Assembly: GCA_947588845.1 (NCBI GenBank)
Contig: CANQAR010000019.1
Location: 1 to 46,608, forward strand
Direction: 5' to 3'
From: an uncultured Lachnospiraceae bacterium
GTDB taxonomy: Bacteria > Bacillota > Clostridia > Lachnospirales > Lachnospiraceae
DNA length: 46,608 nt
In this document: positions 1 to 22,962 of the stretch, piece after piece
How positions within the stretch are numbered: the first letter of the stretch is position 1
How the letters are laid out: each line of letters begins with the position of its first letter
The notes under the pieces: model-generated
Database searches by the model: none
Told to the model about the DNA's origin: nothing
The model's input: the letters and a program-made list of their open reading frames with translations, nothing else
Position numbers and translations under genes: made by a program

Positions 1-234
1 GTTACAGTTCACACCCTCACTGAGCTCGAGGTGATTTCCGGGCAAATTGCCCGGAAATCCCGAGGTCTGAGGCGCGACCATGGAATTTCATTCCATGGTT
101 GACCACGGCGTTCGCTGACAGACATACAAGTATGTCTTACAGCTCACTTCCCGCGCAAAATGCTGCGAAAGCAGCATTTCTGTGCATCGCGGAGCGTTGT
201 TACGTTCACGACCTGCAAGGGAGTGAACAGTAAC
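1..234 (+). repeat. Variable-hairpin repeat, family A, long copy
   Basis: The first of three related copies (others at 20042-20194 and 22878-22962). The ends are imperfect terminal inverted repeats of the form GTTACAGTTCACNCCC. Inside are four hairpins: arms 33-43/49-59, one around 78-104 built on CCATGGAAT, one around 120-138 built on AGACATAC, and one around 160-180 built on AATGCTGC. The last 78 bases are almost identical to the end of the copy at 20042. The two middle hairpins are absent from the other copies. The element ends 3 bases before the stop codon of the minus-strand permease. It may begin before the window. It resembles a MITE or REP-like element, but I cannot name the family. 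Confidence 0.75.
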
Positions 235-237
235 GTC

Positions 238-2937
238 TTATTCCCGAAGACGGTCCGCCAGGCTTTCCTGCCTCATTTTCTGAAACTGTCTGCACGGGAT
301 TCCCCACGCGGTCAGCAGAAGGATCGGGAGTGTGGCCAGCCCCGGAAGCATAATACGTCCGGCAAGAACCGAGACGGACAGATGAAACGTGTACCCGCAG
401 TATCCGAATGTAAGCGCAATCGCGCCGGCAAGAGCACATCCCAGATACATACAGCCCTCCGCGGTAAGCATCCATCGCAGCTGCCGTCCGGTCATACCCG
501 TCGCCTCCAAAAGCGCCAGTTCTTTTTTACGACTTAAAACCGTGGTTGCGGTTGTGTTGAAGAAATTCATAATGCCGATAAAAGCCAGCACCAGGCTCAG
601 CAGGCCGCCGATCATATAATAGCGGTTCACGTAGTTATCATACGTCTCTTTTAATTTTAAAACAGACGTGACCTTTATGGTACTGTCTTTTGAAAGGATC
701 GTATCGTCCAGATATTTTCCTACCCTTTCCTCCTGACCTGGAATCGCGTCTATAAGCGCTTTCATTGCAAAAGAGTCTCCGGTGCAGCGGATGTATTCAC
801 CAGCAGGCACCAGCACTTCTATCCCGGTAAGATAAGCATAAGGATAGCCGAGGCTGTATGGCATCGAAACCTCGCCAAGCATCGTGTACGTCCGGCTGGC
901 TCCGTCATCAAACTGAACCTCAAAGGATTCCCCGTTCTGAAAATATGTCTCGCCTTCCTTCAGATAGCGGTTCGGACGGCGCACAAGCGCGTGTCCGCCG
1001 CTGCAGAATTCCTCCCAGCTGCACGCCTCGTCAAGCCAGGTAAGCTTGTCAAACACAGCCCTCGTAATACCCAGATAATGAACCGGCAGCAGATTGGAAG
1101 CGCGCGCAGTCTCCCATGTCTGTTTTGCGCCGCCGCTCCACTTTGAAAGATGCTCTGCTGTAATGTTTTCAAATATTGTGCGTATATGATCGTTCATCGG
1201 CATGGATGCTTCGGTAAGATAAACATATCCGGTACTCTGGCTGTAAAGGCATGAATTTAAAGCATCCTGCATATCCGGAGAAATCGCGCGGCGATAATCA
1301 TAATCGGTGTCTGCGCTAAAAGTCAGCTTATCCAGCTGGAAATCCCCGGCATCCAGATATATACCGGCAAACTCCTGAAAGTCCATATTTCCGGTTGCGA
1401 TACTCACGTAGTACAGGGTTGCCAGAGACAGCATGACAGAAAGGACGACAACGATGCCCTGCCTGCGGTTTCTTATGGTATTCTGCACAGCCATACCCCA
1501 GGCCGATGCAAAAAATTTTTCACTCCGCCGCAGTTCAGTCTCCACTCCGTTCCGGGTCTTCACTTCGTTTCGGTCGGTTCTGAACGCGCGTCGCTGGCAC
1601 GCAGCACCCCTCGGAGCGTTTTTTGTGTCACAGGACGGAATTTTCTGTGATACAAAAAGACAGCGTCCAAAAACACGCGGGCAGTCGTCTGCGTCTGCCA
1701 TCCGCAGAGCCTCCACGGGGGAAAGCTTCCGGACGATCCGGCACGCCTGCAGGCTGGAAAGGTACACGGTAAACAACGCGAAAAGCGCGGCCGTCACAAA
1801 GATCAGAGGATGCGCGGATGTCACGACAGTGAGACTTGCATCAGTATTCTCAAGCGTTGTGCTGACGGCAGGGGCAAGCGCCAGTCCAACGGCATATCCA
1901 TATGGCAAACCGATGGGAATCCCAATTGCGCAAAGCGCCAGCGCCTGTCTGCGGACAACCGATTTTAACTGCTTTCCGGTCGTCCCCACATTCTTCAAAA
2001 GTCCGTAGGTGCGGATATCATTCTTCACGGATATGTTGAAAATATTATAAATGATCAGATAACCGGCCAGGAGGATCAGCAGCGCCAACAATACAACAGA
2101 TAGCAGGGAGATACTGCCCTCCCCAAAGTCAAAGGCGATCAGATACGCGGGGTTCGGCCGGAATCCGTCGCCGGTCCGTCCGCTTGTTTCAAGTCCTGTA
2201 AGGCTGCCGAGCGTCTGGGAATATTCCCTGATCTTAAAAACATTGTCGTACCAGATGCTGAATGTCCAGGAGCCAAAGGAAGCATCCTCTTTGCTCTGGT
2301 CCCCGGAAGCAGGTTCCGAGGGGAGGGTGTCTAAGGCATACTCTCCGCTGACCCAGCCCCACTGAAAAACGTCGGAGGTGTCGCCTTCCCAGAAGCCGCA
2401 CAGGGAGAAAGTCTCATCTGTCAGAGCGGAATCCGTCCCGTGCTGCACTTTAACCGTAAGCTCATTTCCGAGGATGTGGGAAATACCCAGCGCGTCCAGA
2501 ACCTGCGTGCTCACGGCAATCTCATTTCCCGCTTCCGGCATTCTTCCCGCGGTGGGAAGAGCCAGGCGGTTTTCCGCGGCAGCCATGTCCGCACAGTGAA
2601 ATTCCAGCACGAAAGGAAAACGGTTGTCGGACGCGACCCCCACCAGCTGATCAGCTCCAAAACGCGTGACAAAATCACAGGAAGAAAGGACATCTTTTGC
2701 TCTGTCGGCCTCCTCCTGGCTAAGCTGCTGGATCGTTGCGTGCGATGTGGTGAGATACGCTTTTTTGTCCGCCTCCAGCTTTGTCAGAAACATGGAAAGC
2801 GCTCCGGTAAAAAGGGTCGTGAATAGAAGTGTGGTGAGCACGATGGATATTATGGCTAAAATATAACGCCTGAAATTCACTTTCAGAAACCGCAGAGCAA
2901 GGGAATCAAGCACAGGCCGGTTTTCAACCTTTACCAT
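238..2937 (-). CDS. ABC transporter permease, large FtsX type with two halves
   Basis: Integral membrane subunit, about 899 residues, of a peptide- or antibiotic-type exporter. One membrane segment lies near residues 17-43, a group near 275-410 and a second group in the last 140 residues, with two large extracytoplasmic regions between; both halves look like FtsX domains. The start at 2937 (MVKVENRP) is chosen because a GGAGGTG ribosome site precedes it; it overlaps the end of the ATPase gene by 14 bases, implying translational coupling. Between the halves (near residues 425-475) the usual short linker after VEALRMADA is replaced by a Cys/Arg-rich stretch encoded by a repeat element (see 1539-1665). 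Regulation is presumably by the adjacent two-component system. Substrate unknown; bacitracin or lantibiotic detoxification is a family-based guess. Confidence 0.88.
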   Translation of the reverse strand: MVKVENRPVLDSLALRFLKVNFRRYILAIISIVLTTLLFTTLFTGALSMFLTKLEADKKAYLTTSHATIQQLSQEEADRAKDVLSSCDFVTRFGADQLVGVASDNRFPFVLEFHCADMAAAENRLALPTAGRMPEAGNEIAVSTQVLDALGISHILGNELTVKVQHGTDSALTDETFSLCGFWEGDTSDVFQWGWVSGEYALDTLPSEPASGDQSKEDASFGSWTFSIWYDNVFKIREYSQTLGSLTGLETSGRTGDGFRPNPAYLIAFDFGEGSISLLSVVLLALLILLAGYLIIYNIFNISVKNDIRTYGLLKNVGTTGKQLKSVVRRQALALCAIGIPIGLPYGYAVGLALAPAVSTTLENTDASLTVVTSAHPLIFVTAALFALFTVYLSSLQACRIVRKLSPVEALRMADADDCPRVFGRCLFVSQKIPSCDTKNAPRGAACQRRAFRTDRNEVKTRNGVETELRRSEKFFASAWGMAVQNTIRNRRQGIVVVLSVMLSLATLYYVSIATGNMDFQEFAGIYLDAGDFQLDKLTFSADTDYDYRRAISPDMQDALNSCLYSQSTGYVYLTEASMPMNDHIRTIFENITAEHLSKWSGGAKQTWETARASNLLPVHYLGITRAVFDKLTWLDEACSWEEFCSGGHALVRRPNRYLKEGETYFQNGESFEVQFDDGASRTYTMLGEVSMPYSLGYPYAYLTGIEVLVPAGEYIRCTGDSFAMKALIDAIPGQEERVGKYLDDTILSKDSTIKVTSVLKLKETYDNYVNRYYMIGGLLSLVLAFIGIMNFFNTTATTVLSRKKELALLEATGMTGRQLRWMLTAEGCMYLGCALAGAIALTFGYCGYTFHLSVSVLAGRIMLPGLATLPILLLTAWGIPCRQFQKMRQESLADRLRE
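1539..1665. repeat. Family B repeat embedded in permease coding sequence
   Basis: Bases 1539-1581 match the core of the intergenic element at 5587-5629 at 41 of 43 positions by eye. The shared core is followed in both copies by a GC-rich stretch and then a hairpin with different arms: here TGTGTCACAG near 1625-1634 pairs, with one mismatch, with CTGTGATACA near 1646-1655. The repeat lies in the linker between the two halves of the permease and keeps the reading frame open. Exact ends are uncertain. Confidence 0.7.
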
Positions 2938-3625
2938 AGTGTTCACCTCCTGTCGTCTGACCGGATATAATCCTTCCGTCCTCCAGATGGAGTATGCGGT
3001 CGGAAAGCTGCGCGATCTCCTCATTATGTGTGATCATCACAACTGTCTGATGAAATTGTTCCTGCGTTTCTTTCAGCAGTCCCAGCACATCCTGGCTGGT
3101 CCGGGAATCCAGATTTCCGGTCGGCTCATCCGCCAGCAGGACAGCCGGTTTGGTCAGGATTGCCCGCGCAATGGCGACACGCTGCTGCTGACCTCCGGAG
3201 AGTGTGTTCGGGAGCCGGTCCAGCAGATGATCGATTCCCAGCACGCGGACAATCTCTTTCAGATAATCCTGCTGCGGCTTCCTTCCATCCAGCCTGACGG
3301 GAAGAATGATATTTTCCAGAACCGTGAGCATGGGCACCAGATTATACGCCTGAAAGACAAACCCGATATTCCTGCGTCGAAAGATCGTAAGCTCATCGGC
3401 TGTCATCTTTTCAAGCGGCTGACCATCCACCGTTACGTTTCCGGAAGAAGGAACATCCAGTCCGCCCATCATGTGCAGCAATGTAGATTTTCCGCTGCCG
3501 GAGGTGCCGACGACCGCCACAAACTCCCCTTTTTCTACCGTCAGGGAAATACCATCCAGCGCATGAACCGCGGCATCCCCCTTTCCATATATCTTTTTCA
3601 GTTCTCTGGTTTCCAGTATTGTCAT
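2924..3625 (-). CDS. ABC transporter ATPase (LolD/BceA type)
   Basis: ATP-hydrolysing subunit, about 233 residues, partner of the permease that overlaps its 3' end. Visible motifs: Walker A GTSGSGKST near residues 40-48, Q-loop FVFQAYNLVP, signature LSGGQQQRVAIARA, Walker B VLLADEPTGNLDS and switch His in MITHNEE. The start MTILETRELKK at 3625 is chosen for its AAAGGAGA ribosome site; the longer upstream reading has none. The gene follows the histidine kinase with a 236-base gap that contains a hairpin. This gene order (regulator, kinase, ATPase, FtsX permease) is typical of Firmicutes peptide-sensing and detoxification modules. Confidence 0.93.
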   Translation of the reverse strand: MTILETRELKKIYGKGDAAVHALDGISLTVEKGEFVAVVGTSGSGKSTLLHMMGGLDVPSSGNVTVDGQPLEKMTADELTIFRRRNIGFVFQAYNLVPMLTVLENIILPVRLDGRKPQQDYLKEIVRVLGIDHLLDRLPNTLSGGQQQRVAIARAILTKPAVLLADEPTGNLDSRTSQDVLGLLKETQEQFHQTVVMITHNEEIAQLSDRILHLEDGRIISGQTTGGEHYGKG

Positions 3626-3721
3626 CGTAAATTCTCCTTTCCTGAAAAGCCTTTTTACTGACTTTAACACAGAAAAGTTTCCAGGCAGTTTCTGAAATAT
3701 CACAGTTTTGATATAATGCCA

Positions 3722-3782
3722 GGGTCAAAAGTCCGAATCCACGACATGCTTGCATGTTGGTGGGTGAGTGACTTTATGACCC
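3722..3782. repeat. Nested inverted repeat between kinase and ATPase genes
   Basis: Outer arms GGGTC (3722-3726) and GACCC (3778-3782) extend inward with imperfect pairing (AAAAGTC against GACTTTA). An inner perfect palindrome ACATGC-TT-GCATGT sits in the middle. It lies in the 236-base gap 3626-3861, where I see no gene. It could be an mRNA-processing or attenuation hairpin within the operon or another dispersed repeat. TATAAT at 3712-3717 on the plus strand has no convincing -35 partner. Confidence 0.55.
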
Positions 3783-3861
3783 GCTCCCAAAATGAGGAAA
3801 AAGCAGAGCAGGATTGTGGAAGTGCGAAGCATGAAGCAATCCGTATGGCATGTTTCATATA

Positions 3862-4800
3862 TCATACGTGCAGAAATACCGAAAACACAGAACCCTCGCC
3901 GGGGACAGAGCGAACCTTGATATATCCTTTCTGCGCCTGCACGATCTGCCGCGCAAGATACAGGCCGATCCCCACGCCCGGTCTGTCGGAAACGGCAGGA
4001 CTTCGGTAAAAGCGGGCAAAGATCCGGCTCTGCTCTTCTTCTGGAATCCCCATACCGCTGTCCGCAATGTCGATACGCACAAAAAACGTATATTTTTCAG
4101 CGGTTATGGTGATCCGGCCGCCTTCCTGCGTATATTTTATGGCATTGTCCGCAATATTTCCCAGAGCCTCCGCCGTCCATTTCAGATCGAACAGAGCCAG
4201 CAGAGACGGATCGCATATGCAGAACCAGGATATATGCTTTGCCGCGGCCAGAGGCGCATATTCGCGGTTTACGGTGTCCAGCAGCTCCTTTACATAACCG
4301 CTCTGCGCATGAATATTCAGGATGCCGTTTTCCATGCGGGAAAGCATCACCAGGGACCGGATCAGAAAATCCAGTTTTTCCGCCTGCTCATGAATTGTGA
4401 AAATTTCTTCCTCCTGTCCGCCGGAATGTTCCATAAGCAGTTCGGAATACAGTTTCAGATTGGAGATTGGCGTGAGCGTCTGATGCGCGATATCAGAGAT
4501 CAGACTCTGGATCGTCTCCTTTTGTTTTGTGGGAATCGTAGCAGAGAGCGTGCTCTCGGCCAGATAACGCTTCAGACTGTTCTCCAGCAGGGAAAACCGG
4601 CTTTCGGAAATCTCTGTGCGGGGAAGCGGAGCGATATCGTCTGATACCTGCCCTCCTGCTGCCGCTGTATCAATCAGTTCCTGCAGCCGATCCAGTAATT
4701 TTTTCTCTCTCCTGCGAAAAAAGAAGTACCAAAAAAGACCTGTCAAAAGAAAACAAATGAAAAAAATAACTCCTGCATACATCATAAATCTGCCGTCCAT
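3862..4800 (-). CDS. Sensor histidine kinase with one membrane segment
   Basis: Membrane-bound kinase of 312 residues. A single hydrophobic segment (about residues 8-28) is followed directly by a cytoplasmic linker, so there is no extracellular sensor domain. The phosphoacceptor box is DIAHQTLTPISN with His near residue 106. The ATPase domain shows an N box (NIADNAIKYT), G1 (DSGMGIPEEEQ) and G2 (GVGIGLYLARQIV). The start lies inside the end of the response regulator gene (19-base overlap), implying coupled translation. Kinases without a sensor domain next to FtsX-type transporters usually take their signal from the transporter; that role here is inference. Confidence 0.92.
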   Translation of the reverse strand: MDGRFMMYAGVIFFICFLLTGLFWYFFFRRREKKLLDRLQELIDTAAAGGQVSDDIAPLPRTEISESRFSLLENSLKRYLAESTLSATIPTKQKETIQSLISDIAHQTLTPISNLKLYSELLMEHSGGQEEEIFTIHEQAEKLDFLIRSLVMLSRMENGILNIHAQSGYVKELLDTVNREYAPLAAAKHISWFCICDPSLLALFDLKWTAEALGNIADNAIKYTQEGGRITITAEKYTFFVRIDIADSGMGIPEEEQSRIFARFYRSPAVSDRPGVGIGLYLARQIVQAQKGYIKVRSVPGEGSVFSVFLHV

Positions 4801-5465
4801 GTGTAGCCGATTCCATATACGGTTCGGATATACGGCAAAGCGGCGTCATCCGCTTCCAGCTTATCACGAAGACGTTTGACGGCAACCGTGAGCGCATGTT
4901 CCTCCACGTATTCGGTGTTGCCCTGCCACACCTGATCGATCAGCCGGCTTCTCGTCACGGTTGCGCCCCGGTTCTCCAGAAGAACACGCAAAAGCCGCTG
5001 TTCCGTACGGCTCAGCTCTATATTCCGCCCATTGCAGGAAAAATCCATTTTCTGAAAATCAAAGACATACGGACCTACCTGGACGCGCTGAGGCAATCCG
5101 GCTCCCGGCGCGCGGAGCTGAACCGCCACGCGGGCACGGAGCACCATCAGGCTGAAAGGTTTGGTAATATAATCATTGGCTCCCGCCTCCAGCCCTGTAA
5201 CAATATCAATTTCCAGATTATTGACTGTGATCAGGATCACGGGAACCTGGCTGCTCCGGCGAAATAAACGCACAAATTCAATGCCATTCCCATCCGGCAG
5301 ATTCACATCCAGCAGGATGAGCGCGATCCGGTGCTGGCGCAGAATTTCCTGTGCCTCTGCCAGTGTACGGCACTGAAAGAAGTTCCGTCCTTCCTCCTTT
5401 AAAGAAAGACGGATGCCGTCATTTAGTTTTTGATCATCCTCTGCGATCAGGATATTTTGAACCAT
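4782..5465 (-). CDS. OmpR/PhoB-type response regulator
   Basis: Two-domain transcription factor of 227 residues. The receiver domain has the acidic pair at residues 10-11, phosphoacceptor Asp near 53 (LILLDVNLPDG), Thr near 80 and Lys near 102 (ITKPF). The C-terminal winged helix (about 130-227) includes LSRTEQRLLRVLLEN and VAVKRLRDKLE. The start at 5465 has an AGAGGAGAT ribosome site. First gene of the signalling/ABC operon. Its expected target is the promoter of the downstream ABC genes or its own; I cannot identify a binding site by eye. Confidence 0.94.
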   Translation of the reverse strand: MVQNILIAEDDQKLNDGIRLSLKEEGRNFFQCRTLAEAQEILRQHRIALILLDVNLPDGNGIEFVRLFRRSSQVPVILITVNNLEIDIVTGLEAGANDYITKPFSLMVLRARVAVQLRAPGAGLPQRVQVGPYVFDFQKMDFSCNGRNIELSRTEQRLLRVLLENRGATVTRSRLIDQVWQGNTEYVEEHALTVAVKRLRDKLEADDAALPYIRTVYGIGYTWTADL

Positions 5466-5495
5466 GGAAGTATCTCCTCTGAATTTTTAACTTAT

Positions 5496-5738
5496 AGGGA
5501 ACGACAAAACGATTTTCGTTTTGCTCGTTCCCTGCGCCGAATTTGTGCCGCTCAGGCGGCAGTTTTCCGCTTCAAATTCGTGCGCATCTCCACTCCGTTC
5601 CGGGTCTTCACTCCGTTCCGGTCGGTTCTAAACGAGTGCCACCGGCACTCAGAACCGGCGCTGGACGAATGTCCACTGGACATTCAGCGCCCCCGGAGGG
5701 TTTATAGCAAACGGCAAATATTTTTGTCGTTTGCTATA
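5496..5738. repeat. Family B structured repeat, intergenic copy
   Basis: Fills nearly all of the 278-base gap 5466-5743. It holds a series of hairpins: 5496-5511 with 5517-5533 (one-base bulge); GAATTTG/CAAATTC enclosing GCCGC/GCGGC near 5539-5581; GAGTGCC/GGCACTC near 5634-5651; GAATGTCC/GGACATTC near 5666-5684; and a perfect 11-bp pair 5703-5713 with 5728-5738. The core 5587-5629 matches the copy inside the permease. The element ends 5 bases before the stop codon of the ATPase gene. No other gene is visible here, and a promoter for the response regulator is not obvious. Confidence 0.7.
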
Positions 5739-5743
5739 GAATC

Positions 5744-7096
5744 TTAAAACCGGAATTTTGAAATTCCATAAATCGGAATCGTGATTATATTCCCCGCCTG
5801 TCCGCCGCAGGTGCTGCCTTTTACATACAGCACATAATCCGCTTTTTTCTTTTCCAAAGCTTCCATTGCCGTTTTTCCGCTGTTTTTTCCAGACTTTACT
5901 TCGAGCGCATACGTCTTTTCCGATGCCAGTCCCTTTACGTAAAAATCAATTTCACCGTTCCCCAAGGTTGCAAAAGCCGGAGTTTCCAGTGCAATTTCAC
6001 ACGGATGCGTAATTCGCCGTCTCAAATCCAGATAAACAAAATTTTCATTTAAAATACCGGCAGACGCAGCCCTGGAAACACCCGCCTTTGTCAAAAAATA
6101 ATTTGCAAGTCCAACATCCCTGAAATAACATCTTGCTTTTGCCTTGTAGTTCAAAATACTGCATTCCGGCAGCTTACCTGCAAAATCAATAATTCCTGAG
6201 CTGTAAAGCCAGTCCATCGCCCGGTTGACCGATGACTTTGTGATATTGCTGGAATAATCTTTCACGACAATACTCTGCAGTTCCTCACTGAAACTGTCCT
6301 CGTCAAAGCCTTTCTTTTCTTTGGCCAGAACACGTGCAACACTGCAAAAGATATTTTCATAAGTCGCGGCATCCAGGATATCCTCAAAATATCTTCGGCT
6401 CTCATTCGTAAAAAGCCGGATAATTTTAAGCAGCTCCGCCTGACAGTCCTGTAAGGACGCATTTTCCAGATATTTCAGGACGACGCCCGGATATCCGCCG
6501 ATCTGACAGTAATCGTTATACAGACTTTGAAGCTTTTGATAAACGTCGGCGCCGCTTTCCCCATACAGGCTCATGCTCTCATACAAGCCAGTACAGTCCA
6601 GAGCCATCAGAAATTCTTCAAATCCCAGCGTACAGATTTCGATGGAATCCAGGTCGCCGGAAGAATATTTAAACTCCTTTTTTAAAATTCTTCCCAGATA
6701 ACTTCCCATAATGATGAAATCGCATTTCAGCGAACGCGTAAATTCACGGATGCGGTTGTAAATATCCGCCGATTCCTGAATTTCATCAATAATCACAACC
6801 GTGTCCCCAGAGTCCCTGAAATCAGGCTGATATCTTCGAAGCAATTCGAAGAGCGGATTGATGTATCTTTTTCCCGATTTCATGTCCTCCCACAATTCCC
6901 GGTACTGTTCCAAAAAGAGTTCCCCGGTCAGCTCCATCAGATTGATATAAATTTTCTGGCCGTACTGTTCATCCGCAAATCGGTTTACCAGATAGGTTTT
7001 GCCCACCTGCCTCGCACCGGATACCTCCAGTGCGGAATGACCCGGACGCTTTTTCCAAGCCGCCATCTCGTCATAAGCTTTCCGTTTCAGGTACAT
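5744..7096 (-). CDS. AAA ATPase with DUF4143 domain
   Basis: About 450 residues. Walker A is GARQVGKTYL near residues 27-36 and Walker B VVIIDEIQES near 100-110. The remainder matches the DUF4143 layout, with a nuclease-like tail (EIDFYVKG...YALEVKSGK) that resembles the PD-(D/E)XK fold. The start MYLKRKAYDEM at 7096 has an AAGGAG site; an upstream in-frame ATG lacks one. It stands alone between a repeat and a small-RNA locus. Members are widespread in gut Firmicutes, often as accessory genes; a DNA-related or defence role has been proposed for some, but function is unknown. Confidence 0.88.
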   Translation of the reverse strand: MYLKRKAYDEMAAWKKRPGHSALEVSGARQVGKTYLVNRFADEQYGQKIYINLMELTGELFLEQYRELWEDMKSGKRYINPLFELLRRYQPDFRDSGDTVVIIDEIQESADIYNRIREFTRSLKCDFIIMGSYLGRILKKEFKYSSGDLDSIEICTLGFEEFLMALDCTGLYESMSLYGESGADVYQKLQSLYNDYCQIGGYPGVVLKYLENASLQDCQAELLKIIRLFTNESRRYFEDILDAATYENIFCSVARVLAKEKKGFDEDSFSEELQSIVVKDYSSNITKSSVNRAMDWLYSSGIIDFAGKLPECSILNYKAKARCYFRDVGLANYFLTKAGVSRAASAGILNENFVYLDLRRRITHPCEIALETPAFATLGNGEIDFYVKGLASEKTYALEVKSGKNSGKTAMEALEKKKADYVLYVKGSTCGGQAGNIITIPIYGISKFRF

Positions 7097-7212
7097 CGCA
7101 AATGCTCTCCTTTCTGCCCACACCTCAACAGATATTCTTTTTTGAGTATATCAAAAATGTCCTCTTCTTTCAACTGCATACATGGCAAAGGCAGGACAAA
7201 CGCATACCCCGC

Positions 7213-7240
7213 TTGACAAAACCGGGGGATCCGCTATAAT
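7213..7240 (+). promoter_or_regulatory. Consensus sigma-A promoter for small RNA
   Basis: TTGACA at 7213-7218 and TATAAT at 7235-7240 with a 16-base spacer, both perfect consensus hexamers. No protein gene follows on this strand; transcription would run into the conserved segment GACAAGCGGTTAGCCCG and stop at the hairpin 7306-7337. Confidence 0.8.
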
Positions 7241-7246
7241 GAAAAT

Positions 7247-7344
7247 AGAAAAGGGCGTTGCCGACAAGCGGTTAGCCCGGAAACGAGTTTACAAAGTTAA
7301 ACCTTAGAAACCGTCACTTGGCAGAGTGGCGGTTTCTGCTTTTC
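7247..7344 (+). ncRNA. Putative antisense-type small RNA, copy 1
   Basis: About 95-100 nt from the predicted start to the run of T after the terminator. Shares GACAAGCGGTTAGCCCG and the terminator design with the locus at 20270-20359. It runs convergently into the 3' end of the minus-strand ORF ending at 7314 and overlaps its last codons. Established type I toxin-antitoxin pairs in Firmicutes use such 3'-overlapping RNAs; membership here is inference. Confidence 0.6.
7306..7344. terminator. Bidirectional terminator hairpin
   Basis: Arms AGAAACCGTCAC (7306-7317) and GTGGCGGTTTCT (7326-7337) pair with a single G-U, followed by GCTTTTC. The minus-strand ORF stops inside this hairpin. Confidence 0.75.
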
Positions 7345-7736
7345 ATCTCCGTAATCGCATCTGTTCTGAGACATTCAAACGGTTTACCCAGAAGGCATCC
7401 GCTGATCCTGCCAGTCCATGCGCCGGCAATCTTATCACGCAGCTCTGTCTCACTTAATTTTTCTCTCCAGCTGACACTCTCATTTCCTTCTGAAGTTCTC
7501 TCAATTTCCTCATACAAAGACGGTTCCTCATACGGATAATCTTTTTGTACCGGCGCCTGCTTCATCTGCCTGAATGTTTCCAGCGCTTCCGTTTCACAGT
7601 CTTCTGTTTCAGACCAGGCCGCAATCTGTTCACACTTTTTACGAAATCGTTCTACCTTTTTTCCCTCATCTTTCATTTGTCTCCATTCAGTCAGTATTTC
7701 CGGCGCATATTTCATCCACTTTTGATTTTTTAGCAT
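7314..7736 (-). pseudogene. Truncated ADP-ribosylglycohydrolase-like gene
   Basis: ORF of 140 residues with a good GGAGG site. The segment near residues 96-120 (LRDKIAGAWTGRISGCLLGKP) is the N-terminal signature of ADP-ribosylglycohydrolase-family proteins, which are normally several hundred residues long; everything after about residue 125 is missing. The last residues (MKSRNRHSAK) belong to the small-peptide/small-RNA element and parallel the end (VKSNNRQCK) of the peptide encoded at 20332-20406. The gene therefore looks cut by that element, giving a hybrid C-terminus. It lies 93 bases after the FAD-dependent oxidoreductase gene, probably once in the same operon. The truncated product lacks most of the expected metal-binding residues. 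Confidence 0.65.
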
Positions 7737-14985: not shown

Positions 14986-14993
14986 GTGAAATG

Positions 14994-16372: not shown

Positions 16373-16387
16373 AAAGGAGAAGGGACA

Positions 16388-17344
16388 ATGATAACAGAGA
16401 GAGAAAATGCTCTGCGGGTGCTGAAGCATACAGGGACACCGGAATGGGTGCCGGGAAGTTTTGATTGCGCTGTCACTGTGTTTCCGTCTGGTCTGCAGGA
16501 AAAAGCACCCATGTTTCAATCTGGTAATGATGGCTTCGGATGCCCGTGGGTTTGGGATGCTCAGTGCTTCGGGCATGCGCCGAATGTAAAGCTTCCGCCA
16601 GTAGTGACAGATATTAGCCGCTGGAGGGAAGAGGTCACTTTCCCTGATATTGATGCAGTGGATTGGAAAAGTATTGCCCAAAAAGATTTAGAAAATATTG
16701 ACCGAGAGAATAAGTTGGTACGTTTGTTCTGCGAAATGGGACCTTTTGAGCGCACGAATATTCTGCTGGGCTTTGAAAATGCGTTTATTGCAATGATGGA
16801 GGAACCTGAAGAGTACAAGGCACTCCTGGACGCATGTGCTAATTACAAGATCCGTGTACTCAACAAGCTGCTGCCCTTATACCAGCCGGACGAAGTGTTT
16901 TTCCATGATGATCTGGGAACAGCCAACGGCCCTATGATCTCTTTAGATACTTATCGGAAGCTGATAAAACCAGCTCATAAGAAGATTGCGGATACGATAC
17001 ATGCTCATGGAGCACTCTATACTCATCACAGCTGTGGGCATATGGAAGCATTTTTGGGTGACCTTGTGGAAAATGGCATTGACGGCGTGAATCCTCTCCA
17101 GGCTATGAACCATTGGGATGAGATCATGAAAAAATACCAGGATAAGATCTATTTTAACGTAGGGTGCGAGGTTCATGCGAACATTCCTACTGTTTCTGAA
17201 GAACAGTTGAGAGAGGATGTCCATACAATCATTGATACCTTCGGAGACAGGCTTATGGCGGATGTGTTTATTAGCAATGTCGAGTGCCAGAATAATGGGG
17301 AGATATTAAAAGACGAGATTCGCCGGTACGGTTCCTTGCGGTAA
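16388..17344 (+). CDS. UroD-family methyltransferase (MtaA/MtbA-like)
   Basis: 318 residues; AAAGGAG precedes the start. The C-terminal half has the family pattern: VFFHDDLGTANGPMISLDTY, HSCGHMEAFLGDLVENGIDGVNPLQ and a late Cys in FISNVEC. In MtaA-type methyltransferases a His-X-Cys pair and a later Cys bind zinc; HSC and this Cys are candidates. True HemE is excluded by the metabolic context and by divergence at the N-terminus. It lies between the GcvT-like gene and an MFS gene, so it probably handles the methyl group or a corrinoid carrier in the same demethylation path. No corrinoid protein gene is in the operon. Confidence 0.85.
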   Translation: MITERENALRVLKHTGTPEWVPGSFDCAVTVFPSGLQEKAPMFQSGNDGFGCPWVWDAQCFGHAPNVKLPPVVTDISRWREEVTFPDIDAVDWKSIAQKDLENIDRENKLVRLFCEMGPFERTNILLGFENAFIAMMEEPEEYKALLDACANYKIRVLNKLLPLYQPDEVFFHDDLGTANGPMISLDTYRKLIKPAHKKIADTIHAHGALYTHHSCGHMEAFLGDLVENGIDGVNPLQAMNHWDEIMKKYQDKIYFNVGCEVHANIPTVSEEQLREDVHTIIDTFGDRLMADVFISNVECQNNGEILKDEIRRYGSLR

Positions 17345-17364
17345 ATTGAAAGGAAGATATCCAT

Positions 17365-18516
17365 ATGAATACACGGAATAAATGGAAGACAAAGTGTGGA
17401 ATTTTTATTTTCTCCTTGATCACACAATCCATGAATGCGTTGTCCCTTATGCTTTCCGGAATCACTGCTGACTATCCAAATGTGGGAACATCCTCTGTTC
17501 AGATCGTATTTACTTTGATCACCTTAGCTTCTGTGGCTGGTACCGTGGCAGCAGGTAAGTTGGCATGTTTGATGACGAAAAAGAAAATGGTCAGCATATT
17601 TATGGTAATTATGGTATTTGGCGGGATTTTCGGACGTTTCCTTGGAAATTCACTGGAGATGCTCTATGTTGCCAGTATCATTATCGGTGTTTCCAATGGC
17701 GTCCTGATCCCTGCAGGTTCAGCCCTGATTGCAGAACATTTTGAAGGAGAGGAAAGAGCGGCCTGCGTTGGCCTTCAGTCACTGTTTGTAAGTGGAGGCG
17801 GAATGCTTCTAAACATGTTGGCCGGTATGCTGGCAGCTGTTTACTGGAAGAATACATATCTGGTTTTGCTGACATCAATTCCGGTTCTGGTCTTTACGAT
17901 CCTCCTTCTTCCGGAAGGGAAAATCGAGCAGAGTGAAAAGAATGAAAAGGCGCCGGTGTTAAATACATTTCTTGTTACGTTGATACTTCATTCATTGTTG
18001 TTTGGTATTTGCTGGATGACATTTTACACCAATTTGACTTATTATGTGTTTGAATTGGGTGTAGGAAATGAGACTCAGGCCGGATATGTCACAATGCTGT
18101 TTTCAGCAGGCTCAATTATCGTTGGACTGATCTTGAATCGTGTGATGAAAGTGACCGGAAAGTATTGTTTCGCTACTGGATTATTCATTTCAGCAGCGGG
18201 ATTTTGGATCTTTTCAGTGGCTTCTGGCCTGCCAATTCTAATGATTGGAGCTGTGATGCAGGGTATCGGATTTGGATTATTCATGCCGTCGGGCTACGCG
18301 ATAATTCCCAATTATGTCCACTCAGGAGCCATTACAATGGGGATAGCCTTGTTTACGGCGGCTATGTCTCTGGGGGGATTTGTCAATCCTTATGTTGTTA
18401 CTCCTATTGCAGGAATAATGAGTACTGCGGTATCTGCCAGATTTTTCATTGCTGCAATCCTTCAGACGATTAATGCGGTGGTATGTATTTTTACAACCAG
18501 GGTGATCATGAAATAG
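17365..18516 (+). CDS. MFS transporter
   Basis: 383 residues with about 12 hydrophobic segments in two bundles separated by a charged loop near residues 185-200 (EGKIEQSEKNEKAP). The loop between segments 2 and 3 carries TKKKM, a degenerate version of the MFS loop motif. It resembles oxalate/formate-type MFS carriers. It is the last gene of the methyltransferase operon, so it most likely imports the methylated substrate or exports the demethylated product. A terminator follows at 18588. Confidence 0.88.
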   Translation: MNTRNKWKTKCGIFIFSLITQSMNALSLMLSGITADYPNVGTSSVQIVFTLITLASVAGTVAAGKLACLMTKKKMVSIFMVIMVFGGIFGRFLGNSLEMLYVASIIIGVSNGVLIPAGSALIAEHFEGEERAACVGLQSLFVSGGGMLLNMLAGMLAAVYWKNTYLVLLTSIPVLVFTILLLPEGKIEQSEKNEKAPVLNTFLVTLILHSLLFGICWMTFYTNLTYYVFELGVGNETQAGYVTMLFSAGSIIVGLILNRVMKVTGKYCFATGLFISAAGFWIFSVASGLPILMIGAVMQGIGFGLFMPSGYAIIPNYVHSGAITMGIALFTAAMSLGGFVNPYVVTPIAGIMSTAVSARFFIAAILQTINAVVCIFTTRVIMK

Positions 18517-18587
18517 GGGCACGACGGAAATATTTTTTTGGGAGGCTGCTTTCGAGATCATCAGATAAAAGTAAATGACATTGCATA

Positions 18588-18627
18588 TCCCGCGGTAGAC
18601 AAAATTTTGCCAACCGCGGGATTTTTT
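18588..18627 (+). terminator. Rho-independent terminator of methyltransferase operon
   Basis: TCCCGCGGT (18588-18596) pairs perfectly with ACCGCGGGA (18613-18621), followed by six T. It lies 71 bases after the MFS stop codon. Confidence 0.9.
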
Positions 18628-18789
18628 CTGTTTGAAGAAACATGGTATTTTGTTAATAAAATCTATATAATTAAAATGCAGGGCTCATCGTATCCGGAAA
18701 TTAATCTGTCGTGGGTGACCAGAAGCATGTTTTCCGCAGAGGTCTGGCAGATCGGCAACCTGCCAAAGGGATCTTTGTAGGGAGGTGCA

Positions 18790-19037
18790 TCCTCTTTGCG
18801 TCCGAACTAATCTACGAGCTGATGACGACTGGGGAAGCCAGAACAACACGTTTATGTTCCCGGCAATGTTCAAGGAATTCATCCTTCCCTCATATTAGAA
18901 GGTCTATAGCCTCTGAAAAAAGAACGGCGTAGAGGTCATCATCCATCACAGCGATTCCTATGCTGCGACCCTCGTTCCCTAATATGATCCAGATGGGGAT
19001 CGACGTATGGCAGGGAGCCGTCTATGAGAACAATAGT
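18790..19037 (+). pseudogene. Decayed UroD-family methyltransferase fragment
   Basis: Reading in the frame beginning GAT at 18821 gives DDDWGSQNNTFMFPAMFKEF, then ILPSY, a stop, KVYSL, a stop, then KKNGVEVIIHHSDSYAATLVP. After a one-base insertion it continues as NMIQMGIDVWQGAVYENN up to about 19034. This matches the C-terminal half of UroD/MtaA-type proteins (DDWG, a His-rich site, GIDVWQG). Two stops and a frameshift show it is dead. It sits just downstream of the intact UroD-type gene and operon terminator. The rest of the gap 18628-18820 shows nothing I can support. Confidence 0.65.
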
Positions 19038-19694
19038 TTTCATTGCTCCCACCGCAATCAGGCTCCCTTCCGGGAGGCCAGTGGACAACAGGACCGTATC
19101 ACCGGCAGGGTACTTCCTATCTTCATGATTCAGAACAACGCCAAGCTCCTCCCTACGGATAATATTTACCTGGTACTCCCCCTCCTTTTCTTCTGAGGAC
19201 TCTGTTACGTTTTCTGTCTCTGCCTCCGGCTCCTCTGCCGGATCTGTTTCGGCAGTTCCTTCCGTCCTCGGTTTTGCCCCGGCCTCCGGTTCCTCTGCGG
19301 CATCTTTTCTGTCCGCCGCTTCCGTCCCCGGTTCTGCTCCGGTTTCCAGTTCTGTCTGTCCAGACACAACCGGCAACATGGAGGACTCCGCACGGACACT
19401 CTCCGGATTTTGTTCCTGCACTCCTTCCGGCATTTCCGCTGCTGAAATTTCCGCGGAATTTTCAAGCACAGGCAGCATACTTTTTTCCATGTCCTGCCCG
19501 CCCTCTGGAGGCCGGTTCTCTGTTTCTGCCAGATCCGTTCCAGCTCCGGCATTCCAGTTCCGCAGCGTTCCCTCTGGCAGGGCGCGCAGAGATGCACACT
19601 CAGGCCGGGTATCAATCTGGACAGGATATAAGATTATCAAAGATCTGTTTGAGGGGGATTTCAGCGTCAGAAAAACATCCCTCCCACTAATCAC
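18939..19694 (-). CDS. Hypothetical low-complexity ORF, probably truncated
   Basis: GTG-start ORF of 251 residues with no convincing ribosome site. The middle (about 60-175) is rich in Glu, Ala, Pro and Thr with loose repeats (EPGTEAADRKDAAEEPEAGA). A short region near 175-215 (YQVNIIRREELGVVLNHEDR) could be a small beta domain. The last 35 codons lie antisense to the decayed UroD fragment, so the natural C-terminus has been lost. I do not recognise a family. It may be the remains of a surface or linker-rich protein gene. Confidence 0.3.
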   Translation of the reverse strand: MISGRDVFLTLKSPSNRSLIILYPVQIDTRPECASLRALPEGTLRNWNAGAGTDLAETENRPPEGGQDMEKSMLPVLENSAEISAAEMPEGVQEQNPESVRAESSMLPVVSGQTELETGAEPGTEAADRKDAAEEPEAGAKPRTEGTAETDPAEEPEAETENVTESSEEKEGEYQVNIIRREELGVVLNHEDRKYPAGDTVLLSTGLPEGSLIAVGAMKTIVLIDGSLPYVDPHLDHIRERGSQHRNRCDG

Positions 19695-19730
19695 AGGTTT
19701 CAGGTGGAAAAAGAGAGCCGAAAGTTTTGA

Positions 19731-19759
19731 TTGAAAACCCTTTTGCCGCCTTGTATAAT
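19731..19759 (+). promoter_or_regulatory. Promoter of truncated Rpn-like gene
   Basis: TTGAAA (19731-19736), 17-base spacer, TATAAT (19754-19759), followed by an AAAGGAGG site and GTG start at 19838. Confidence 0.7.
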
Positions 19760-19837
19760 AAAGTCATAACAAGAATGTTCTGCAGCACGCTTTTGACAGA
19801 TTTGAAAAATACAGAGTAAGAACAAAGGAGGCTGCCA

Positions 19838-20227
19838 GTGACTGACAAAAACATAACATTGTCTGACGCGGACATCCAGTGGCATCACGCTTTCTGTGCT
19901 GCCGCGGAACTGGAACTGTCCGCCAACCGGACAGATCTGGACTTTCAGCGGGAGTACAACTTAAGCCAAAAACCCCTGCGGGCTCCTTTTTATAGTCCGG
20001 CATGTAACTGCCAAATCGTCTGTCCTTTTTGTGATACAGTCGTTACAGTTCACTCCCCCATCGAGTTCGAGGTGATTTCCGGACATTTTGTTCGGAAATC
20101 CCGAGGTCTGAGGCGCGAAATGCTGCAAATGCAGCATTTCTGTGCATCGCGAAGCGTTGTTACGTTCACGACCTGCAAGGGAGTGAACAGTAACATACAG
20201 TCCATTTTTACTCCGAAAATCCAGTAA
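19838..20227 (+). pseudogene. Truncated Rpn/transposase-like gene joined to a repeat
   Basis: The promoter, ribosome site (AAAGGAGG) and N-terminus are intact. Residues 1-48 (IQWHHAFCAAAELELSANRT, then DLDFQREYNLSQKPLR) match the start of Rpn-type (PD-(D/E)XK nuclease, transposase-associated) proteins common in Lachnospiraceae, which normally run to several hundred residues. After about residue 50 similarity ends, and from base 20042 the frame reads through the family A repeat to a stop at 20227. The product would be a 129-residue chimera; it is best treated as a dead gene cut at or near a repeat insertion. Confidence 0.55.
20042..20194 (+). repeat. Variable-hairpin repeat, family A, middle copy
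   Basis: Terminal inverted repeats GTTACAGTTCACTCCC at the left and GGGAGTGAACAGTAAC at the right pair with one mismatch. Hairpin 1 has arms 20074-20084 and 20090-20100; hairpin 2 is AATGCTGC/GCAGCATT. The final 78 bases are nearly identical to the copy at 1-234, but the two middle hairpins of that copy are absent. Confidence 0.8.
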
Positions 20228-20234
20228 TTGTGAA

Positions 20235-20263
20235 TTGACATTTTAACTTGTCCTGCATATAAT
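20235..20263 (+). promoter_or_regulatory. Consensus promoter for small RNA, copy 2
   Basis: TTGACA at 20235-20240, 17-base spacer, TATAAT at 20258-20263. No protein gene follows on this strand; the transcript would meet the hairpin 20324-20352. Confidence 0.85.
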
Positions 20264-20269
20264 AAAAAC

Positions 20270-20359
20270 AGAAAGAGGCCCTGCGACAAGCGGTTAGCCC
20301 GATCAGATTATTTTATTTGCTAAAACAACCGTCACTTGCACTGGCGGTTGTTGCTTTTC
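20270..20359 (+). ncRNA. Putative antisense-type small RNA, copy 2
   Basis: About 90 nt. Contains GACAAGCGGTTAGCCCG, also present at 7263-7279, then an AT-rich stretch and the terminator hairpin. It overlaps the last codons and 3' region of the convergent peptide gene 20332-20406, an arrangement like known type I toxin/antitoxin loci with 3' overlap. Confidence 0.65.
20324..20359. terminator. Shared terminator hairpin of peptide mRNA and small RNA
   Basis: AACAACCGTCA (20324-20334) pairs with TGGCGGTTGTT (20342-20352) with one G-U; GCTTTTC follows on the plus strand. The peptide gene's stop codon lies in the first arm. Confidence 0.75.
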
Positions 20360-20406
20360 ACGATAATCGTAACGGTAAATTTACCGATATGTAATGTGAT
20401 TCGCAT
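20332..20406 (-). CDS. 24-residue basic/hydrophobic peptide
   Basis: Translation is MRITLHIGKFTVTIIVK followed by SNNRQCK: a hydrophobic, beta-branched core and a basic tail. A strong purine-rich site (GGGGGTGGGG) lies just before the ATG and a near-consensus promoter 80-110 bases upstream (20484-20512). The stop codon is inside the terminator hairpin, and a second promoter drives an overlapping small RNA from the other side. The tail corresponds to KSRNRHSAK encoded at 7314-7340. Short hydrophobic peptides with such antisense partners are usually membrane-active type I toxins; that is inference. It is too short for routine gene calling. Confidence 0.6.
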   Translation of the reverse strand: MRITLHIGKFTVTIIVKSNNRQCK

Positions 20407-20483
20407 AAGCCCCACCCCCTTTCGAGGGATTTGGCCAACCGCCTGCCGCTTTGCAGTGCCTCTGTCCATGTAAGGACATCCAT

Positions 20484-20512
20484 ATTGTATCAATATCTAT
20501 GTCTTCTGTCAA
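20484..20512 (-). promoter_or_regulatory. Promoter of the small peptide gene
   Basis: Minus strand: TTGACA (20507-20512), 17-base spacer, TACAAT (20484-20489). The leader of about 75 nt contains the pairable segments TGTCCTTACATGGACA and a GC-rich stretch (GCAAAGCGGC) that may fold and limit translation. Confidence 0.8.
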
Positions 20513-20625
20513 CCGACAGTAACATATAAAAATTGGAAGTTCCAACTGTCCCGAACCTTCAGAATACAGATATTGTTCCGAACTCTACTGTTGCTAATCG
20601 ATATGATGCACTGTATCACTGCAAA

Positions 20626-20665
20626 AACCCCTGAAAATGCCCATTTTGCGGGATTTTCAGGGGTT
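20626..20665. terminator. Terminator-like hairpin
   Basis: AACCCCTGAAAAT (20626-20638) and ATTTTCAGGGGTT (20653-20665) form a perfect 13-bp stem. It probably ends transcripts coming from the tsf side. A direct duplication of 34 bases lies next to it at 20692-20725 and 20726-20759 (3 mismatches). Confidence 0.65.
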
Positions 20666-20723
20666 CCTCATTCGCTTTGCTTTATGAAATTACACGCCCA
20701 TGCGACTGCTGCTAACCTCAGGC

Positions 20724-20843
20724 TTACATGCCCATGCGACTGTTGCTAACCTCAGACTTCGGCTGTCGCCTCGCCTCCGCTAAGCAACGCTGCATAGCCT
20801 CCAACATACGGTTCATCTGCTCCCTAGCACTTCGCACAAGCAC
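20724..20843 (-). CDS. Possible 39-residue helical peptide downstream of tsf
   Basis: Reading from GTG at 20841-20843 gives SAREQMNRMLEAMQRCLAEA followed by a basic segment and a C-terminus SNSRMGM. It is strongly charged and could form one helix. A GAGGTAGG sequence precedes the start. The 3' end lies in a 34-base duplication. I do not recognise the family; it may equally be the tail of a lost gene. Confidence 0.25.
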   Translation of the reverse strand: MLVRSAREQMNRMLEAMQRCLAEARRQPKSEVSNSRMGM

Positions 20844-20888
20844 CGCCTACCTCGGTTCCGCTTCGCTGCACCTCGGTATCCGTGCGTC

Positions 20889-20960
20889 GCACAATAAATG
20901 CAAAAAAGGAAGTCTTTCGCAAATTGCATTTGCGTCGACTTCCTTTTGCATTTACTGTGC
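20889..20960 (-). terminator. Long hairpin ending the rpsB-tsf transcript
   Basis: GCACAATAAATGC near 20889-20901 pairs with GCATTTACTGTGC near 20948-20960, the stem continues through GGAAGTC/GACTTCC with a two-base bulge, and an inner stem CGCAAAT/ATTTGCG closes the top. On the minus strand a T-rich tract (CCTTTTTTGC) lies in the distal arm. It begins 13 bases after the tsf stop codon. Confidence 0.65.
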
Positions 20961-20973
20961 TTGTGCTAAACGC

Positions 20974-21915
20974 TTAGTTTCCGGCCATCTGCTTCGCAAC
21001 TTCAGCCGCGAAATCTTCTTCCTTCTTCTCGATTCCCTCACCAGTCTCCCAGCGTACGAATCCCTTGATCGTGATATTCGCACCGTTTGCCTTCTTCACG
21101 GAATCTACATACTGCTGTACGGACTGCTTTCCGTCCTCTGCCTTTACATAGATCTGATCCATGAGGCAGAACTCCTTGAGCTCTTTGTTGACACGGCCGT
21201 TGATCATGCCCTCGATGACCTTCTCCGGCTTGGAAGCTTCCTTCGGATCATTCATGATCTGCGCGCGAAGGATCTCTTTCTCATGCGCGATGAACTCGTC
21301 GCTGATCTCGTTCCTGTTCGTGTACTGCGGTCTAAGAGCTGCTACCTGCATGGCGATGTTCTTTGCCATCTCTTTGATCTCGTCGTTCACAACATCTGTC
21401 ACAACGTCAACGAGAACGCCGATCTTGCCGCCCATATGCGTGTAGGATGCGATGAAGCCCTCTGTCTCTGTAACCTGCTGGAATCTTCTGATGTTCATGT
21501 TCTCGCCGATCACCGCGATCTGTGCCGCCAGAGCTTCCTTGACCGTCATGCTGCCGTCAAATTTCCACGGCTCCGCAAGGAACGCGTCGATATCCGCCGC
21601 TGTCGTATCCATCGCCTGCTCCGCAACCTGCGCCACGTAGTTCTGGAATTTCTCGTTCTTCGCGACGAAGTCTGTCTCAGCATTGACCTCAACCGCAACT
21701 GCCTTCTTCGCATCTGCGGATACGTCCACTCTTACAAGACCTTCTGCAGCGATTCTTCCCGCCTTCTTCTGAGCGGAAGCAAGTCCTTTCTCTCTCAGAA
21801 ACTCAATCGCCTTGTCCATATCGCCGTCGGTCGCCGTCAGAGCCTTCTTGCAGTCCATCATGCCGGCGCCTGTCATCTCTCTTAACTCTTTTACCATTCC
21901 TGCTGTAATAGCCAT
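20974..21915 (-). CDS. tsf: Elongation factor Ts
   Basis: Guanine-nucleotide exchange factor for EF-Tu in translation, 313 residues. The N-terminal UBA-like domain (ITAGMVKELREMTGAGMMDC KKAL, residues 3-26) and the TDFVAKNEKFQNYV motif near residue 80 are diagnostic. The region near 140-200 forms the dimerisation domain. Start ATG at 21915 has a GAGGAGA site. It follows rpsB by 32 bases, the standard order; the usual next genes (pyrH, frr) are absent, and a hairpin plus mobile debris follow instead. Confidence 0.98.
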   Translation of the reverse strand: MAITAGMVKELREMTGAGMMDCKKALTATDGDMDKAIEFLREKGLASAQKKAGRIAAEGLVRVDVSADAKKAVAVEVNAETDFVAKNEKFQNYVAQVAEQAMDTTAADIDAFLAEPWKFDGSMTVKEALAAQIAVIGENMNIRRFQQVTETEGFIASYTHMGGKIGVLVDVVTDVVNDEIKEMAKNIAMQVAALRPQYTNRNEISDEFIAHEKEILRAQIMNDPKEASKPEKVIEGMINGRVNKELKEFCLMDQIYVKAEDGKQSVQQYVDSVKKANGANITIKGFVRWETGEGIEKKEEDFAAEVAKQMAGN

Positions 21916-21947
21916 TTTGTATTCTCCTCTTAATATCTTTTATAGAA

Positions 21948-22688
21948 TTACTCCGCAAGTGCCTCTACCGGCGCTTCCTCAACTTCCTCCGGAATCATTT
22001 CCTCCATACCCTGCTTTGCCTCGATCACTGCGTCAGCCATCTTGGAGACAATCAGCTTGACCGCACGGATTGCGTCATCGTTGCCCGGGATCACATAGTC
22101 GAGCTCTTCCGGATCACAGTTTGTATCGCAGATACCGATGAGCGGGATACCCAGCGTATGCGCTTCCTGCACACAGATTCTTTCCTTCTTCGGGTCAACC
22201 ACGAAGATCGCGTCCGGGATTCTCTTCATTTCCTTGATGCCGCCAAGGTTCTTCTGCAGCTTGCTCTGCTCTTTCTTCAGGGCAATAACTTCCTTCTTCG
22301 GAAGAACGTCGAATGTTCCGTCCTGCTCCATCGTCTCGATTGCTTTGAGACGTCTTACCCTGCTCTGAATTGTCTTGAAGTTTGTCAGCATACCGCCGAG
22401 CCATCTCTCGTTTACATAGAACATGCCGCAGCGCTCCGCCTCTGCCTGTACAGCATCCTGCGCCTGCTTCTTTGTTCCTACGAACAGGATTGATCCGCCG
22501 TTCGCAACGATATCGCATACCGCGCGGTAAGCCTCGTCAACCTTGCCTACTGATCTCTGAAGGTCGATGATGTAGATGCCGTTGCGCTCTGTGTAGATGT
22601 ACTCAGCCATCTTCGGGTTCCATCTTCTGGTCTGATGTCCAAAATGAACACCTGCTTCAAGTAACTGCTTCATTGAAATAACGCTCAT
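21948..22688 (-). CDS. rpsB: 30S ribosomal protein S2
   Basis: Small-subunit ribosomal protein, 246 residues, normal length. Diagnostic segments: [61 protein letters not shown] and [27 protein letters not shown]. The start MSVISMKQ at 22688 is chosen for its AAAAGGAG site; the reading frame stays open upstream through the leader, but that extension is not S2. A leader of about 115 nt and a promoter lie upstream. Confidence 0.98.
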
Positions 22689-22809
22689 GTCTTCTTCTCC
22701 TTTTCGGTTAATATCTTCCGCATGATTCAAATTCACAGAGACCGTGTTTTCCGCATCCACTCCGGCACCGTCCATGAAATTCTCATGCGTGTTTACTGCA
22801 ACTCTAGTA

Positions 22810-22839
22810 CTATAACATAAAGGGCCTGCAAAACGCAAG
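22810..22839 (-). promoter_or_regulatory. Predicted rpsB-tsf promoter
   Basis: Minus strand: TTGCGT (22834-22839), 18-base spacer, TATAGT (22810-22815). The -35 lies in a hairpin-forming sequence (22820-22846, AAGGGCCTGC/GCAAGCCCTT) that could also terminate upstream transcripts. The leader to the rpsB start is about 115 nt and may be a site of ribosomal autoregulation. Confidence 0.55.
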
Positions 22840-22877
22840 CCCTTTCTATCATATATTTCCAGCTTTTTTGCCACTTT

Positions 22878-22962
22878 GTCGCAGGTCACTTCCCCACTGA
22901 ATTCGAGGTGATTTCCGCACGTTTTGTGCGGAAATCCCGAGATCTGCGGCGTGAACTGTAAC
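22878..22962 (+). repeat. Variable-hairpin repeat, family A, short copy
   Basis: Ends GTCGCAGGTCAC (left, diverged) and GTGAACTGTAAC (right). Contains only hairpin 1, arms 22910-22920 and 22926-22936. It ends 3 bases before the stop codon of the MacB-type permease, the same position as copy 1 relative to its neighbour. Confidence 0.7.

Follow-up and report, generated by a model that had tools for sequence, protein, structure and literature searches.

When the arms of a dispersed hairpin differ from copy to copy and still pair, is it the fold that is maintained, and at which point in the life of the repeat? This question is raised by the window, the whole 46,608-nucleotide (nt) stretch of contig CANQAR010000019.1 (assembly GCA_947588845.1) from an uncultured Lachnospiraceae bacterium, in which an original prediction had described three copies of a dispersed repeat. 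All three are present at the coordinates it gave, and the arms of the first hairpin (H1) and their paired changes at two base pairs read as reported; across copies 1, 2, and 3, pair 9 is G-C, G.T, and C-G, and pair 10 is G-C, A-T, and A-T. The common ends (GTTACAGTTCAC type) also match, except for the left end of copy 3, which is degenerate (GTCGCAGGTCAC). We herein identify the repeat as a miniature inverted-repeat transposable element (MITE) that was mobile in the past, is likely moved in trans by an IS66-family transposase, and carries hairpin arms that covary among spreading lineages. Its features in the window are as follows.

1 to 234, plus strand: MITE copy 1, with four hairpins; its ortholog in the relative G046 is shorter by 81 nt
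1 to 12, plus strand: left terminal inverted repeat of copy 1, GTTACAGTTCAC, coinciding with the contig edge
33 to 59, plus strand: hairpin H1 of copy 1, arms GATTTCCGGGC/GCCCGGAAATC
77 to 157, plus strand: 81-nt block of copy 1 containing a further two hairpins (77-99 and about 114-142), absent from the G046 ortholog
158 to 179, plus strand: hairpin H2 of copy 1, arms AAATGCTGC/GCAGCATTT
223 to 234, minus strand: right terminal inverted repeat of copy 1
235 to 242, no strand: right target duplication of copy 1, GTCTTATT, which flanks both sides of the G046 ortholog (L149)
20034 to 20041, no strand: left 8-bp target duplication of copy 2, ATACAGTC
20042 to 20194, plus strand: MITE copy 2, full length, 153 nt
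20074 to 20100, plus strand: hairpin H1 of copy 2, arms GATTTCCGGAC/GTTCGGAAATC, with one G.T pair
20118 to 20139, plus strand: hairpin H2 of copy 2
20195 to 20202, no strand: right 8-bp target duplication of copy 2, ATACAGTC
22878 to 22962, plus strand: MITE copy 3, worn, with one hairpin; an ortholog is present in G046, and the same gap of G006 is without a copy
22910 to 22936, plus strand: hairpin H1 of copy 3, arms GATTTCCGCAC/GTGCGGAAATC; two mismatched pairs in the G046 ortholog

Because copy 1 begins at the contig edge, only its right duplication is visible, and no target duplication was visible in the flanks of copy 3. The claim that copies are modular was borne out by copy 1 and its G046 ortholog, which differ at a single base and by an 81-nt block holding two hairpins.

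Past mobility is recorded in the flanks. From 109 full-length matches chosen regardless of duplication, 99 were retained because their ends were recognisable, their flanks long enough, and their right flanks distinct, and 7 or 8 of the 8 flanking bases were identical in 85 of them (8/8 in 64, 7/8 in 21, lower in 14). Controls in which left and right flanks of different copies were compared reached 7/8 in 10 of 9702 cases and never 8/8. An exact 8-nt duplicate was found in 64 of the 109 copies, and in 0 to 2 for every other length from 5 to 11. Moreover, the gap occupied by copy 3 in the window and in G046 has no copy in G006, and in another gap (L091/L187) the genome of the window (G000; 5.06 Mb, 280 contigs) and G046 hold different insertions with different duplications. 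The repeat is short, is bounded by 12-bp GTTACWGTTCAC terminal inverted repeats, is without its own transposase, and has ends in common with an IS66 element. What had been described as a dispersed repeat is, more specifically, a MITE, with target duplications of 8 bp and a partner that is likely of the IS66 type. In the L091/L187 gap, G000 shows a MITE copy inserted inside the remains of another copy, and the G046 copy sits at a different place, where G000 shows no insertion.

The family is large in its own genome and restricted in its distribution. The 12-bp end pattern GTTACNGTTCAC occurs 167 times (70 + 97) in G000 versus once for a reversed control, and copy 2 as a query gave at least 48 matches there, with 40 of 190 first-look candidates scored. 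The covariance-model search of the host and its relatives that had been proposed placed the family in 14 of 98 genomes (E 0.001; at most 31 candidates scored per genome), of which 13, the own genome included, belong to the genus and one, G056, to another genus of the family; the remaining 34 genomes of the genus gave no match at this threshold. When the inner arms were left free in the search pattern, 64 stretches in named genomes matched; every one of these genomes is a metagenome-assembled genome (MAG) of an uncultured Lachnospiraceae bacterium, one being called Eisenbergiella. All of the isolate names start with 'Lapin', which we read as rabbit, and the family probably belongs to Lachnospiraceae of the rabbit gut. 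Plasmids and phages gave no match at E 1e-5, and viral contigs gave none to the H1 pattern.

Copies follow a common order: the left end, a variable spacer, CGAGGTG-[H1]-CCCGAG, GCGCG-[H2]-CTGTGCATCGCGAAGCG, and the right end, within which the terminal repeat recurs in near-inverted form and which, judging from its sequence, could fold back on itself. The 73 copies selected for a duplication match of at least 7/8 range between 37 and 225 nt, mostly 140-154 nt. Based on crude open-frame calls, the 55 of 67 copies with enough flank lie in 24 tandem, 21 divergent, and 10 convergent gene gaps, at median distances of 41 nt from stop codons and 123.5 nt from starts. The shortest element (L048:1501-1537; 37 nt, flanks matching 7/8) is hardly more than two terminal repeats; it may be a minimal unit able to move or, alternatively, what remains after a deletion. 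At six contig ends of G000 (L002, L009, L011, L015, L067, and L093), a sequence starting with CAATGTCATTAAGTTTAG runs to the end of the contig, and it breaks several MITE copies within or beside the terminal repeat; it resembles a second insertion sequence and may prefer MITE ends as a target.

Regarding the mover, the proposal to look for a transposase with the same ends led to a partial IS66-family gene behind an identical 12-bp end. In G000, this end is joined to a type A sequence at 11 places and to a type B sequence at six, nearly all of which are contig ends. On contig C20, the type A end leads into a partial DDE_Tnp_IS66 gene located 64 nt inside the end (Pfam, E 2.6e-21, 76.7 bits versus a cut-off of 23.1). 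The same gene matched the NCBIfam model NF033517 (E 2.2e-34) with 119.2 bits, below the required 180, presumably because it is cut. Each of the six type B ends shares its exact 8-bp flank with one of nine distinct type A sites, a pattern expected if the A and B ends bound a single element that makes 8-bp duplications. In G004, one contig carries a type B end along with remnants of this transposase; an open frame near these remnants had no Pfam match and was not similar to the other IS66 protein of G000. Among eight genomes of relatives, PF03050 gave nine hits in five, and the five loci checked among these nine had no GTTACNGTTCAC (GTTAC) end within the available stretch with up to three mismatches. 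The IS66 family is also known for the accessory genes tnpA and tnpB. Duplications of 8 bp are listed for the IS66 elements ISPpa5a and ISPpa7 (PMC3281130). Since this genome also houses a partial IS66 element that matches the MITE in its 12-bp end and in duplication length (8 bp), we infer that its transposase is the likely mover of the MITE.

The claim that pairing is kept while the sequence changes was upheld across the copies and relatives examined. Across 59 distinct full-length copies, the share of stem cells that pair was 99.3% versus 92.0% in shuffles, doubly changed pair cells numbered 121 versus 47.4 (at most 15 in slid controls), and the covariation score was 0.281 versus 0.134 (slid, at most 0.101). 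On three of five measures, covariation was higher than in any of the 500 shuffles; the other two, the counts of doubly changed pairs and of further pair types, were not above shuffles. Among the alleles of H1 are GGGC/GCCC, GCAC/GTGC, GTGC/GCAC, GGAC/GTCC, GGAC/GTTC, and GAAC/GTTC, and those of H2 are mainly CTGC/GCAG and CCAC/GTGG. Subfamilies of G004, G045, G023, and G056 have arms that are new for the most part and still mostly paired, although a G.A mismatch in H1 is retained in seven copies of one G004 subfamily. Thirteen representatives, which we chose to span subfamilies of seven genus genomes and one of another genus, contained 17 doubly changed H1 cells versus 3.8; only H1 was counted because MAFFT misaligned the longer H2 arms of divergent subfamilies. 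The covariation is real, and pairing is kept in the lineages that spread.

The same is not visible within each resident copy. Singletons per site were similar in stems (12/40, 0.30) and at other internal sites (22/79, 0.28), and were 10/24 (0.42) in the end repeats. An ortholog survey gave seven pairs with both flanks similar, five of them distinct, and two of these pairs, L026/L175 and window copy 3/L383, had stem differences: one uncompensated base in the former, and two H1 pairs in the latter that are broken in G046 and intact in the window. None of these three in-place changes was compensated. Copy 1 and its G046 ortholog have identical H1 and H2, and L184/L321 and L084/L324 are fragments without hairpins, which placed them outside the in-place test. 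The pair L091/L187 was dropped from this test as separate insertions, given its different duplications; if it were one insertion, it would show compensated H2 changes and an inverted H1 loop. Since stem singletons resemble those of other sites and no in-place change was compensated, the maintenance of pairing shows in spreading lineages and is not visible in each resident; the few data available indicate that a copy drifts after it has landed.

A strand asymmetry may be related to spreading. Among copies with duplications (59 H1 and 54 H2), distinct non-canonical states were G.T in 22, A.C in 7, and others in 4, an earlier count of allele cells having been 21 G.T versus 6 A.C, whereas the remaining copies (50 H1 and 34 H2) had 15, 20, and 11, respectively. 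These counts weakly suggest that G.T on one strand is tolerated in copies capable of spreading.

Taken together, we consider the following explanation reasonably probable. An IS66-family transposase would recognise the 12-bp end GTTACWGTTCAC, move the MITE, and make the 8-bp target duplications, and the conserved short blocks between the ends would frame two or more hairpins. In lineages that are still spreading, the arms would change with pairing kept, and in a copy that has landed, they would drift like the rest of the element. Because pairing is kept in the former and drift follows landing, the fold would have its effect while the element propagates, most likely with the element in a single-stranded or cruciform state. 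Paired alleles would be shuffled, and loops inverted, by recombination among copies together with template switching at the hairpins. In a stronger form, movement would involve a single-stranded or cruciform stage that requires the hairpins to be folded, with a polarity, so that only paired copies spread and the loops record template switches; we regard this form as doubtful.

Several points weigh against this explanation. The IS66 partner is known from a partial copy only, and movement by it is deduced from sequence. Transposase hits were obtained in 7 of the 47 genus genomes (own included) and were mostly weak, with a close long copy only in G000 and fragments in G000 and G004; the breaking of draft assemblies at repeats may explain why most MITE-bearing genomes show no partner. 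The in-place test comprises three changes. In a wider set of all copies, G.T and A.C alleles numbered 22 and 20, i.e., without asymmetry, two A.C states were found in more than one copy, and the p values of 0.008 (intact copies) and 0.011 (contrast) are nominal, as allele counts are not independent events. Furthermore, template switching could maintain pairing without selection.

This last alternative survives best, and we regard it as a tentative possibility: during DNA replication, one arm would be copied onto the other, which keeps the arms paired and sometimes inverts the loop. Full loop inversions (GAT/ATC, AAA/TTT, AAAA/TTTT, and GAAA/TTTC) separate copies that differ at just 2/119, 3/114, 2/131, and 4/105 other sites, respectively, and at two neighbouring pairs of H2 that switch together, intermediates are almost absent (one A.C cell in 74). 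In L248 (G045), an H2 A-T pair has become C-G in both arms and the loop is inverted relative to the common G045 loop, a combination of changes that has been called the strongest possible support for template switching (PMC8794818). However, the neighbour of L248 in a minimum spanning tree is L247, which differs by two compensated pairs and one loop substitution, so that the inversion reading depends on the comparison chosen. Where the loops of two copies differ at a minimum of two positions, inversion accounts for 80 of 228 H1 and 14 of 456 H2 copy pairs, and plain reversal accounts for 36 of the latter; a large loop change in L151 between near-identical copies is not an inversion, and some matches between loops of three or four bases are chance. 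Private mismatches also stay uncorrected (A.C 8, others 5, G.T 4), two orthologous pairs diverge without compensation, and H1 pair 9 shows an intermediate chain of G-C, G.T, and A-T. The inversions, one of which accompanies a compensated pair, suggest that template switching is a second process at work. Selection at movement is favoured as the keeper of pairing, with template switching as a contributor, and we infer that such selection, rather than mutation alone, is probably responsible.

Pairing may instead have been inherited from a few founder subfamilies, the covariation then reflecting relatedness and recombination between copies with no ongoing process, which we consider unlikely. It is consistent with the free combination of H1 and H2 alleles among copies, with near-identical copies that carry different paired alleles at both hairpins, and with the two covariation measures that did not exceed shuffles. 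Local mosaicism also extends beyond the hairpins, and exchange between copies is, therefore, likely; a hypervariable hotspot at the hairpins was dropped because, in a leave-window-out control, element positions 1-28 and 109-142 were equally mosaic. Nevertheless, the different, mostly paired arms of the G004, G045, G023, and G056 subfamilies indicate that paired arms arose repeatedly.

We consider it quite improbable that transcription of the plus strand yields a functional structured RNA, acting as a regulator, as a stabiliser, or through processed hairpins, with selection on the RNA fold, because the strong fold of copy 1 (-111.3 kcal/mol versus a shuffled mean of -67.1, z -9.1) and the plus-strand excess of G.T in duplication-bearing copies stand against the absence of that excess in the remaining and all-copy sets, the lack of a clear orientation bias in the 24 tandem gaps (14 same, 10 opposite), stems that mutate like other internal sites, and a repeat without an Rfam match at gathering scores. 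An RNA gene on one strand was accordingly not established by the G.T/A.C counts, gene orientation, or Rfam. The original prediction had offered a selected fold (RNA or cruciform) or arms rewritten by copying, and there is some evidence for both options. In the whole window, Rfam at gathering scores gave only Clostridiales-1 (RF01699, 67.9 bits, 3714-3853).

A second dispersed repeat adjoins copy 2 (20232-20512), and the whole or parts of it occur at several places in G006, G046, and G008 with 78-91% identity. At the G046 locus of copy 3 (L383), about 143 extra nt lie upstream of the copy, relative to window positions 22745-22760, representing a second insertion or a deletion in the same intergenic gap. 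On the minus strand, tandem 18-nt and 39-nt repeats are located within long open frames (25700-26049 and 28599-28988).

Small mobile dispersed hairpin repeats with paired (compensatory) arm changes occur in Nostoc. The present MITE sits in another phylum, and we know of no IS66 link for the Nostoc repeats. In REPIN/RAYT systems, a tyrosine transposase moves the element without target duplication; membership was rejected given the 8-bp duplications, and no search was aimed at RAYT genes. Similar to REPINs and REP sequences with RAYT transposases, the MITE is a high-copy intergenic mobile hairpin (PMC3116915). REPINs consist of two inverted REP units tied to tyrosine transposases (PMC3116915), whereas the MITE is flanked by 8-bp target duplications, ends in 12-bp terminal repeats, and has an IS66 DDE transposase as its candidate partner.

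MITEs are moved in trans by insertion sequences (PMC10969869), and the present family resembles them in being short and non-coding, with terminal inverted repeats, target duplications, and ends in common with an insertion sequence of the same genome. It differs from them in its conserved internal multi-hairpin frame, the arms of which covary across subfamilies. Stable stem-loops in MITE transcripts are mentioned in the same review, in the available text of which IS66 does not occur (PMC10969869). The transposition of MITEPsy1 was observed, and this element is listed as 'IS5?' with 4-nt duplications (PMC3189936). Among the matches listed in a literature search, no title or abstract opening named a MITE with IS66 ends and covarying hairpins. 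As in the IS66 family, a DDE_Tnp_IS66 gene adjoins the end that yields 8-bp duplications; in contrast to IS66 insertion sequences, the repeat encodes no transposase. Why conserved internal hairpins should be carried by an element that a DDE transposase mobilises is a question that follows, and, if movement does include a folded-hairpin step, the family would be a natural experiment separating selection on a fold from mutational arm copying.

Covarying stems are usually taken as proof of a functional RNA, and a mobile DNA family also covaries strongly here. Strong covariation between lineages is combined with resident stems that mutate about as fast as other internal sites and with signs of template switching, which provides a many-copy test of how hairpin arms co-evolve and a caution against calling such repeats RNA genes. 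The MITE shares loop inversion with a compensated stem change with template-switch RNA hairpins (PMC8794818); those were studied in ribosomal RNA genes (PMC8794818), whereas the hairpins described here belong to a mobile element with tens of copies per genome.

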